NCBI GenBank assembly: GCA_026988575.1
Contig: JALSKZ010000077.1
Span: 1 to 32,987 of the forward strand
Length of the DNA: 32,987 nt
Source of the DNA: Thermodesulfobacteriales bacterium
GTDB taxonomy: Bacteria; Desulfobacterota; Thermodesulfobacteria; Thermodesulfobacteriales; Thermodesulfatatoraceae
Reading direction: 5' to 3'
Both the position numbers and the translations under genes were made by a program. The stretch's first letter is position 1. Each line of letters opens with the position of its first letter. Positions 8,248 through 12,149 of this stretch are shown piece after piece. The notes under the pieces are model-generated. The model did not search any database. It was not told the origin of the DNA and saw only the letters and a program-made list of their open reading frames with translations.

Positions 8248-8655
8248 TTAGTGGGTAAAGCGGTACCACAAATCCCAGCCAATGGCGGCCAAGGAAAAAA
8301 TAAATATTATTAAGTAATTAAAGCGTTCTTTAGAAACGTAAACACTACTGACGATATAATAGAGGGCTTCCCAATCACTTTCTTGAAGTTCGTTTCGCTT
8401 TTTAAGCTTCTCCAGCAGGGCAAGTTCTCTTATAACGCGTCGTCTTCGATGGGTGATGTAGGTGCGGAAGGAAAAAAAGAGCATATTCCCACAGACACCT
8501 ATATACCAAAACAAAGAGATGAGTTCGGGCCGGTAGACCTTGGCTACCAAGATAAGTCTTAAAGAAATAGCTGCTGTTAACCCTACGCCAAAGGCCAGCC
8601 ACGTTATCCAGGTGGGAAACCGGTGCGGAATATGGATCTCGTGTACTTCTTCCAT
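8248..8655 (-). CDS. Unknown small membrane protein linked to hemB
   Basis: I do not recognise this 135-residue protein. It has a short polar, histidine-rich start (H5, H8, H11), a membrane segment at about 17-37, a second at about 46-66, a basic cytoplasmic loop beginning HRRRRVIREL with a charged helix (about 69-110), and a third membrane segment at about 112-131 ending in WDLWYRFTH. Its ATG lies only 2 bp after the hemB stop, so it is translationally linked to HemB. A role around heme supply or a small membrane complex is possible but unproven. No cofactor motif is evident apart from the N-terminal histidines. Confidence 0.7.
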   Translation of the reverse strand: MEEVHEIHIPHRFPTWITWLAFGVGLTAAISLRLILVAKVYRPELISLFWYIGVCGNMLFFSFRTYITHRRRRVIRELALLEKLKKRNELQESDWEALYYIVSSVYVSKERFNYLIIFIFSLAAIGWDLWYRFTH

Positions 8656-9708: not shown

Positions 9709-11418
9709 TCACCCTTGGGTTGAGTGCTTGTAGATAAAGGCCTTCCTAACGATGGCAATCCCTGTGGTTATAGGTAAGGCCTCGGTAAGCCCCTCTAACA
9801 AGAGGCTTTGTCCTAAGAGCCTTTTCCTATAAAGGTTTAAGAGCAAAAGACAGTAAACTGGTATAAAAAGAAGAGTTATCATCCTTATGCCCCAAACAAT
9901 GACCAGGGCAAGTAGGCCTATGGCTACATATAATATTTGAAACGTCTTTTTTTCGCCTACAAATACCGGCAAGGTCTCCTTCCCCACGAAACCATCGCCC
10001 TGTACTTCTAAAATTTCTAGAAACACCGCTCGTATAAAGGCGATCAGAAAGGAAAAGGCCATGAGTACATAAGGGCTTTGGGGATGGTTTTCAGATATCC
10101 AGGGGACCAAGGTGGAAAAAGACATCCAGGCCAAGGCGATAAATAGGCTTCTTACTCCAGGGAACCACCTCGCTCTAGAAGCTTGCTTTTTAGAAAAAAA
10201 CGGAAGGCTGTAGATTATGGTGATAAGGGTCAAAAAGACTACCAAGCCAAAGGCAGATCGAGCATAAGTCCAGGCCATAAAGAGCGTAATCAGGTAGCTT
10301 AGAAGGGAAAGGCCCAATAAAAAAGGCCTATATTTTTCCAGAAACTGGGCGCGAAAGGGGTCGTTTAGCCTGAGGGACTTTATATCCATGAGTCGGTTTA
10401 GGGTATGGGCCCCGAAGCAAAAGCAACTTGCCATTAACGGATAATAGATCTTAGAGGGAAGTCCCATGAGAACTAAATTGCTCAAGGTCAAAACAAAAAT
10501 TCCCAGCCCCAAGGCCAAATTGCTTTCAAAACAGAAGCGCAAAAGCTTACGCAGCCATCTCTTCCACCCAGGTTCATAGGGAGAAGGCAGGTTTTCTAAC
10601 GTGCGGATCACCTGATTTATAACCCAGTTAGGAGTAGAGGCCCCGGCTGTTACGCCCACGCGTTTAAATTTCTGGAGCCTTTTTAAAGGCAAGTCGTGGG
10701 CTGTTTCTACCAAAAATACTTCACGACCCTCTTGCTGGGCTATTTGGGCCAGGCGTTTGGTATTGGCGCTGTTTTTACCCCCCACAACTACGATGGCTTC
10801 GCATAATTTACAGAGGCGGCGCACTTCTTTTTGGCGCTCATGGGTGGCGTTACAAATGGTGTTATAGACCTTGCCGCCGGGAAAGCGCCTCAAAAGCTCC
10901 TGGACGATCTTTGTATATAGAACTGTATCTTGTGTGGTTTGAGAAAGAATTACGTATTTTTGAAGGGGGGGGAGGGAGTCTATTTCTTGAGGAGAACTTA
11001 TTACCAGACCTTTGTCTCCGGCATAACCTAAGAGACCTTTTACTTCGGCATGCTCAGGGTCACCTACAATGATTACGTGAAAGCCTTGTCTACTATAACG
11101 GCGGGCCAGGGCTTGTACACGTAGGACGCGAGGACAAGTGCCGTCTATAACGTGAAAGCCGGCCTTTTTAAGGGCTTCCTTTTCTTGAGGGGGTATTCCA
11201 TGGGCCCTTATTATGATTGTCCCCTGGCCTTGGGTAGGTATCCCTTTTAAGGGATAAACATTTAGGGTCTCTAAAAGCATAAGGGCTTGTGCATTATGAA
11301 TGAGGGGGCCGTAGGTGTAAACAGGTGGGGGGGCTTCTCCTGCCGCCCTCAGGGCTATTTGTACGGCCCTCCTTACTCCCATGCAGAAACCAGCCTTTTG
11401 GGCCATGACCACCTGCAT
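9709..11418 (-). CDS. ispH: IspH (HMBPP reductase) fused to a UbiA-like prenyltransferase domain
   Basis: The ATG at 11418 gives 569 residues. Residues 1 to about 276 are IspH, the 4Fe-4S enzyme that turns HMBPP into IPP and DMAPP in the MEP pathway: cluster cysteines C12 (GFCMGVRRAV), C95 (DGTCPRV) and C189 (NTICNATHERQ), plus H41, H73 (RAHGIPP), H123 and the STPNW loop. Residues about 290-569 are a multi-spanning membrane domain of the UbiA superfamily: N341-x3-D345 plus D353 as the first motif, and a second motif in which E468 and E471 stand where aspartates are usual, with D475 (EVQGD) and KETLP. The ordinary IspH length is about 280-320, so this is a true fusion, without a frameshift at the joint. 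A TTG one codon upstream is in frame, but the ATG overlaps the radC stop (TGATG) and follows AAGGGG. Confidence 0.93.
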   Translation of the reverse strand: MQVVMAQKAGFCMGVRRAVQIALRAAGEAPPPVYTYGPLIHNAQALMLLETLNVYPLKGIPTQGQGTIIIRAHGIPPQEKEALKKAGFHVIDGTCPRVLRVQALARRYSRQGFHVIIVGDPEHAEVKGLLGYAGDKGLVISSPQEIDSLPPLQKYVILSQTTQDTVLYTKIVQELLRRFPGGKVYNTICNATHERQKEVRRLCKLCEAIVVVGGKNSANTKRLAQIAQQEGREVFLVETAHDLPLKRLQKFKRVGVTAGASTPNWVINQVIRTLENLPSPYEPGWKRWLRKLLRFCFESNLALGLGIFVLTLSNLVLMGLPSKIYYPLMASCFCFGAHTLNRLMDIKSLRLNDPFRAQFLEKYRPFLLGLSLLSYLITLFMAWTYARSAFGLVVFLTLITIIYSLPFFSKKQASRARWFPGVRSLFIALAWMSFSTLVPWISENHPQSPYVLMAFSFLIAFIRAVFLEILEVQGDGFVGKETLPVFVGEKKTFQILYVAIGLLALVIVWGIRMITLLFIPVYCLLLLNLYRKRLLGQSLLLEGLTEALPITTGIAIVRKAFIYKHSTQG

Positions 11419-12149
11419 CAAAACACCCCTTGTACCTGATTTTCTAGTTGGTTTAAAAGTCCATTATCAGCAAAACTGAAATAGCCCTCTTTGGCAATAA
11501 TTAAATGGTCTAAAAGACGGATTTGCAAAACCCGGCAGGCCATGAGTATTCTTTTAGTGAGGTCAATATCTGCCCTGGAAGGGGAAGGATCTCCAGAAGG
11601 ATGATTATGGGCCAGGACAAGGGCGGTCGCCTGAAGCTCTAGAGAACGCTTTAGAATTTCTCTAGGGTAAACAGCGCTCTCGTTTACGGTGCCCTGAAAG
11701 AGCTCTTCCACCGTGATAATGTGGTGTCGCGCGTCCAGAAATAATACTTTAAATACTTCTCTTTTCAGGTCCATCATGCTATGGCCCAAGTATTCAAATA
11801 CTTCTTGGGCGCAGGAGATATAGGGCCTCTTGGCCAGACGCCGGGCCAGGAAGCGTCGGGCTACCTCGTGAACAAATTTAAGGGCCAAGGCGTTTTTGGG
11901 GCCTACCCCAGAAACCTTACAAAGTTCTTCCAACGGGGCCTCTAGGACTTGGGCAAGACTACCGAAGCGCTTTAAGAGCTCCCGAGCCTGTATCTTACAG
12001 TCCCGACGGGGGGTACCAAAAATAAGCAATAGTTCCAATACCTCTTCGTCCGTAAAGGCTTTAAGCCCGTGGGTTAAAAATTTCTTCCTAAGACGCTCTC
12101 GGTGCCCAGCTACTCGCTGATAAAATTCTGCGGGTAATTTTGCCCCCAT
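11418..12149 (-). CDS. radC: RadC family JAB/MPN-domain protein
   Basis: A 243-residue protein of normal RadC length. Residues 15-105 hold the helix-hairpin-helix part (SGVGPKNALALKF at 80-92). Residues about 110-235 form the JAB/MPN domain with the metal motif H181-x-H183 ... D194 in AHNHPSGDPSPSRADIDLT. Despite the name, a role in DNA repair is doubtful in E. coli and the real function is unknown; the metal site suggests a hydrolase. It lies in a tight minus-strand run after the kinase gene (16 bp gap), and its TGA overlaps the ispH-ubiA ATG, implying translational coupling. No strong ribosome binding site precedes the ATG. Confidence 0.93.
   Translation of the reverse strand: MGAKLPAEFYQRVAGHRERLRKKFLTHGLKAFTDEEVLELLLIFGTPRRDCKIQARELLKRFGSLAQVLEAPLEELCKVSGVGPKNALALKFVHEVARRFLARRLAKRPYISCAQEVFEYLGHSMMDLKREVFKVLFLDARHHIITVEELFQGTVNESAVYPREILKRSLELQATALVLAHNHPSGDPSPSRADIDLTKRILMACRVLQIRLLDHLIIAKEGYFSFADNGLLNQLENQVQGVF

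Follow-up and report, generated by a model that had tools for sequence, protein, structure and literature searches.

The fusion gene and its IspH half

The window (the whole stretch of DNA that was analysed, 32,987 nucleotides from a Thermodesulfobacteriales bacterium) carries an intact single frame on its minus strand, running from 11418 to 9709 and encoding a 569-aa protein in which IspH (HMBPP reductase) is followed by a nine-helix domain of UbiA fold. This ispH-ubiA fusion gene (9709..11418) starts with an ATG at 11418 and stops at 9709; an in-frame TTG lies at 11421. Directly upstream on the minus strand lies radC (11418..12149), whose stop overlaps the start of ispH-ubiA by one base (TGATG), making it likely that the two genes share an operon, and the same radC-ispH order is found at L007-L009. 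In one contig scan using close-relative patterns, relatives were found in Thermodesulfatator autotrophicus and in two Thermodesulfobacteriales MAGs, with 58-59% identity across the whole length. Elsewhere in the window, a probable membrane protein of 135 aa without a Pfam match (8248-8655) sits between hemB and a hemerythrin-like gene.

IspH is usually regarded as a soluble enzyme. In the fusion, the IspH domain (10588..11418, minus strand; aa 1-277) matches Pfam LYTB at 3e-87 across aa 4-276, the whole protein scores 272 bits against TIGR00216 (cut-off 188), and the nearest solved structure to this half by sequence is 3dnf (E 4.7e-66). The residues that a sequence-only reading of this DNA had named as [4Fe-4S] ligands, i.e., C12, C95 and C189, are indeed invariant against other IspHs (alignment A3), and so are H41, H73, H123, E125, T161, S217, N219 and S261. 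The LytB domain is thus complete, with the three cluster cysteines and the full active-site set of His, Glu, Thr, Ser and Asn. As the fusion is the sole ispH found in the source genome, which is 98.8% complete, this IspH likely converts HMBPP to IPP and DMAPP.

A predicted UbiA fold with altered motifs

The C-terminal half (9712..10560, minus strand; about aa 287-569) has 8-9 predicted membrane helices and matches Pfam UbiA at 3.5e-9 across aa 333-527 (36.8 bits, cut-off 34.2). Together with the LYTB match and the same arrangement in relatives, this bears out the uninterrupted IspH-UbiA frame that the sequence-only reading had described. AlphaFold2 models of the UbiA half (pLDDT 80.6, pTM 0.81) and of the whole protein (pLDDT 84, pTM 0.73), which rest on shallow alignments of 5-8 sequences each, predict a UbiA-like bundle of long helices and a well-formed IspH part, respectively. 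The best Foldseek matches of the UbiA-half model are UbiA of A. fulgidus and of A. pernix (TM 0.5-0.67), so that the predicted fold of the domain is that of the UbiA superfamily, with its 8-9 membrane helices. The domain profile (A2) matches the PDB weakly (4tq3 at E 0.12), and residue equivalences with the A. fulgidus enzyme (AfUbiA) therefore rest on motif alignment.

In AfUbiA, Mg and substrate are bound by N68, D72, D198, D202 and Tyr139, the N68A and D72A changes abolish GPP binding, and the equivalents of N68 and D72 are required for function in E. coli MenA (PMC4106721). The window equivalents of these five AfUbiA residues are, in the same order, N341, D345, position 471, D475 and Y403. 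The first motif reads H338-x-x-N341-x-x-x-D345 (10384..10407, minus strand): compared with the canonical NDxxDxxxD, the Mg ligands N341 and D345 are present, whereas the second-position Asp and the third Asp, four residues past D345 (AfUbiA D76), are absent. Y403-S404 (10207..10212, minus strand) corresponds to the near-universal UbiA Tyr-Ser pair (AfUbiA Y139-S140), and this TM4 Tyr was present in 34/34 sequences outside family f3 in our first set. The second motif, E468-ILE471-VQGD475-GFVGKE481-T482 (9973..10017, minus strand), has Glu at 468 and 471, so that the canonical DxxxD is replaced by E471-x-x-x-D475. E471 is equated with AfUbiA D198 without a gap, on the basis of its DxxxD distance from D475; HMMER placed a three-residue gap in motif 2. 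Both the NxxxD and the Glu-bearing motif reported from the sequence alone are therefore present as described.

The fusion is widespread in the phylum

We next consider how far the fusion extends. An IspH match was found in 38 of the 41 genomes of the window's class; in 35 of these 38 it lies in a frame of 546-852 aa, and the remaining three are short frames ending at contig ends, i.e., every uninterrupted IspH of the class is fused. Across 395 sampled genomes of the phylum, the frames that carry IspH come in two size groups, of about 280-345 aa and about 570-690 aa, and the long-frame representatives examined all carry the UbiA domain, bar one locus of family f18 that is long only upstream. 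Profile A2 finds matches in 184/395 of these genomes at E <=0.001 (some 155 reach 1e-26 or better), almost all within fused frames; the weaker ones may include unrelated UbiA genes. The fusion is present in 49 family-level groups of Thermodesulfobacteriota/Desulfobacterota, which answers the question of taxonomic spread within the phylum; outside it, the survey consisted of one pattern scan with close-relative patterns.

This distribution bears on whether the frame could result from an assembly fault, a frameshift or chance read-through between two neighbouring genes. A single locus has the look of one: at L099 (3095-4888, family f25, G062), IspH and the UbiA domain lie in different frames, reflecting either a split gene or a sequencing error. 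Against this, the same single frame occurs in five finished one-contig genomes (G005, G010, G016, G019 and G035) and across the 49 families, and no stand-alone copy of the domain was found near the unfused loci examined, L099 aside. Separate full-length genes in close relatives, named in the sequence-only reading as the sign of an error at the joint, were looked for and not found. We therefore reject an artefact, whose probability we regard as negligible.

Several loci depart from the common arrangement. Additional N-terminal partners, considered for frames of 672-904 aa, were discarded: upstream of L042, L114 and L126 lies a high-G+C open frame in which no domain was recognisable by eye. One genome of family f65 (G171) has two IspHs (L070 and L071), one fused and the other of a different, longer unfused type, and in family f80 the unfused IspH type occurs in several genomes, with a fused one in G280 (and, by frame length, in G408). 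This mix of fused and unfused IspHs in f65 and f80 suggests gene replacement. The closest stand-alone UbiA-like relatives that we found are L014 1781-2650 (Patescibacteria), near an ORF resembling a polyprenyl-diphosphate synthase, and L111 1420-2277 (family f15).

In a careful IspH tree (78 rows), the fused proteins form one clade, save one unfused f78 row inside it, with two label changes (fused side 95/78) that are best interpreted as a single gain and a single loss. A quick tree that also took in f34, f42, f83 and others gave five changes, and its deep forks are unsupported. A single origin of the fusion is thus likely from these trees but unproven.

The UbiA metal site is eroded in many fused families

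Motif 2 is of an Asp type (FDILDIQGD...GKET) in most families and of a Glu type (LEILEVQGD) in the window's family (f1) and its sister f2, where the change is fixed in all sampled sequences (8 rows). The altered second motif singled out from the sequence alone is hence real, but it is not peculiar to the window: it is fixed in f1 and f2, and Asp motifs are eroded phylum-wide. By alignment, 30/49 fused families are without one or more of the five UbiA residues (Asn, Asp, Tyr, Asp/Glu, Asp); all five are canonical in 16/49, or in 19/49 when Glu is allowed at 471, a family being scored as complete only if every sampled row keeps all five, and most families being represented by one row. D345 is kept in 36 of 63 representatives and an acidic residue at 468 in 58 of 63. 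On the IspH-only tree, D345 changed state at least seven times and N341 and position 471 at least nine times each, D475 only once. Whole clades, f3 and f34, are without motif 1; the equivalences were drawn by motif alignment, which is uncertain in the most degenerate rows and least certain in these two. In f34 (L119, L133, L135 and L136), the fused tails are 260 aa long, without the motif-1 region, and match the domain only weakly (15-25 bits), making it a second strongly degenerate lineage besides f3.

As a control, we scored 20 MqnP-type genes above the family cut-off (30 genomes of the same set, 19 of which have one), and all 20 keep N, D, D, Y, D, D. The erosion is therefore peculiar to the fused domain rather than something that UbiA proteins of these bacteria share at large.

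These patterns weigh on the idea that the fusion is a bifunctional 'Rosetta stone' (Rao et al. 2015), in which IspH would feed IPP and DMAPP locally to an active UbiA prenyltransferase with an unknown acceptor, Glu standing in for Asp in the second metal site. The window itself has N341, D345, Y403, S404, E471 and D475, the UbiA fold is supported by Foldseek, the canonical five persist in 16 of the 49 families (19 with Glu), and H338, E481 and T482 hardly vary outside the degenerate clades; Rao et al. argue likewise from two DxxxD repeats (PMC4746011). However, the 30 families that are without at least one of the five include several without N341 or D345, the counterparts of residues that AfUbiA needs to bind GPP, MqnP of the same genome set never loses its key residues, and some lineages have lost the domain with no stand-alone relative found elsewhere in the genome. 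We consider this unlikely, although catalysis in lineages with a full residue set, among them the window's, is the main rival to the anchoring reading favored below. Since N341, D345, Y403, E471 and D475 remain in the family of the window, its proteins may still bind some substrate or act as transferases, and prenyl transfer could survive in certain lineages, including that of the window.

Other positions behave differently from the metal ligands. H338, Y403, D475, E481 and T482 are almost fixed outside f3 and f34, and there the first four are better conserved than the classical ligands N341, D345 and 471. This could point to a module, no longer catalytic, with a ligand-binding or regulatory role, which would sense or hold prenyl diphosphates in an altered pocket formed by His338, Tyr403, Asp475 and Glu481. 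Yet most of these pocket residues are gone as well in f3 and f34, and binding is proposed from conservation; we consider such a module improbable.

The fused helices are under selection but can be lost

To the extent that f3 pairs show measurable synonymous change, dN/dS is about 0.17-0.33 in the UbiA half and 0.07-0.09 in the IspH half, with one near-identical pair at 0.46 on very few changes. By hydropathy, the degenerate f3 tails have 7-9 predicted helices. The degenerate UbiA halves are thus under purifying selection and still look membrane-spanning.

Outright loss also occurs. No match to the UbiA domain was found in four f78 genomes that are at least 99% complete, and the domain has gone from one f18 genome (L114, G055) as well; f78 (L103, L117 and L121) and L114 fall within the fused clade on the tree and have normal-looking IspHs. 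The domain is accordingly useful but dispensable, and anchoring of IspH, if this is what the domain provides, is not essential everywhere.

The source genome has other UbiA-family genes, the separate genes whose existence the sequence-only reading had raised as a point to settle. MqnP (ubiA_other, TIGR01475; G000 C83) is a stand-alone protein encoded next to a ubiX-type gene. Two other loci, C30 and C28/C32, resemble decaprenyl-phosphate phosphoribosyltransferase. L003 and L005 (G000 C28 and C32) are overlapping translations at two contig ends, likely one UbiA-type gene in pieces. Given MqnP and these other genes, menaquinone would be made independently of the fused domain, for which we judged such a role unlikely. 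From the gene content, no known job seems clearly left vacant for it.

The fused domain probably holds IspH at the membrane

Taken together, we favor the hypothesis (at a probability of roughly 0.55) that anchoring is the property that selection keeps, and that the main role of the domain is to keep IspH at the membrane. Such anchoring, which the sequence-only reading had likewise put forward, is favored because UbiA N-termini and Asp motifs lie on the cytoplasmic side (PMC4106721), where IspH works, and because no known job is vacant. The gene product would then be a membrane-bound form of IspH, whose soluble Fe-S half would reduce HMBPP to IPP and DMAPP, and whose C-terminal half, presumably a former UbiA-type prenyltransferase, would tether it to the membrane's cytoplasmic face, close to downstream users of prenyl diphosphates and perhaps to electron donors on the membrane side. 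Prenyl transfer by the UbiA half would not be what maintains the fusion, because the Mg/diphosphate residues have been lost repeatedly and the fused helices are under purifying selection. Some observations speak against anchoring: a pure anchor needs none of the near-fixed H338, Y403, D475, E481 and T482, the acidic residue kept at 468 could take the place of 471, and f78 and one f18 genome do without the domain. A broader formulation is that an ex-prenyltransferase whose metal site was lost many times in parallel has been kept either as an IspH anchor or as a pocket holding prenyl diphosphates, with the last step of the MEP pathway membrane-bound across much of the phylum; we offer it tentatively, at a little under even odds.

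If anchoring holds, IspH in many Thermodesulfobacteriota would be fastened to the membrane through a domain with apparently dispensable chemistry, the last MEP-pathway step would be membrane-localised in these anaerobes, and many such proteins would be misleadingly annotated as 'IspH/prenyltransferase'. The UbiA half also provides a natural series, running from canonical through Glu-variant and degenerate forms to absence, through which anchoring and catalysis could be separated experimentally.

Comparison with known systems

Among UbiA structures, AfUbiA (4tq3) and ApUbiA (4od5) share with the window domain its predicted fold, the Tyr-Ser pair, N341/D345 and the final Asp of motif 2. They differ in that E471 stands where AfUbiA has D198, AfUbiA D76 has no window equivalent, and the window domain adds the conserved H338 and E481. 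MqnP of the source genome belongs to the UbiA superfamily like the fused domain, but is stand-alone and keeps all its Asp motifs. The IspH-RPS1 fusion (NF000907; Clostridia and others) likewise joins IspH to a C-terminal partner in anaerobes; there, however, the partner is ribosomal protein S1 rather than a membrane domain, and the window protein scores 304 bits against NF000907 (cut-off 624), with the match confined to the IspH part.

The nearest precedent is that of Rao, O'Dowd, Li, Wang and Oldfield (2015, Chem Sci 6:6813; PMC4746011), who described IspH-UbiA fusions in sulfate reducers, and no later study of them beyond citation of that work was found in the open literature. The statement in the sequence-only reading that no studied fusion of this kind was known thus falls, as Rao et al. 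reported 47 such sequences, all from sulfate reducers and with two DxxxD motifs. They noted that a separate UbiA/MenA also exists, proposed membrane anchoring of IspH by the domain and a local supply of IPP and DMAPP from IspH, and found that full-length expression failed, the Thermodesulfatator atlanticus protein included (PMC4746011). The window protein is of their type, having IspH, then an in-frame C-terminal UbiA-like domain, in the sulfate-reducer phylum; domain order and phylum are the same, and T. atlanticus is among the proteins that they tried. It differs in its motifs: where Rao et al. mention two DxxxD repeats (without making them a definition), the window has NxxxD in motif 1 and ExxxD in motif 2, and many of its relatives have lost more motif residues than the window has. 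This pattern of motif-residue loss across the fused families, as read from their alignment, is new relative to Rao et al. (2015).
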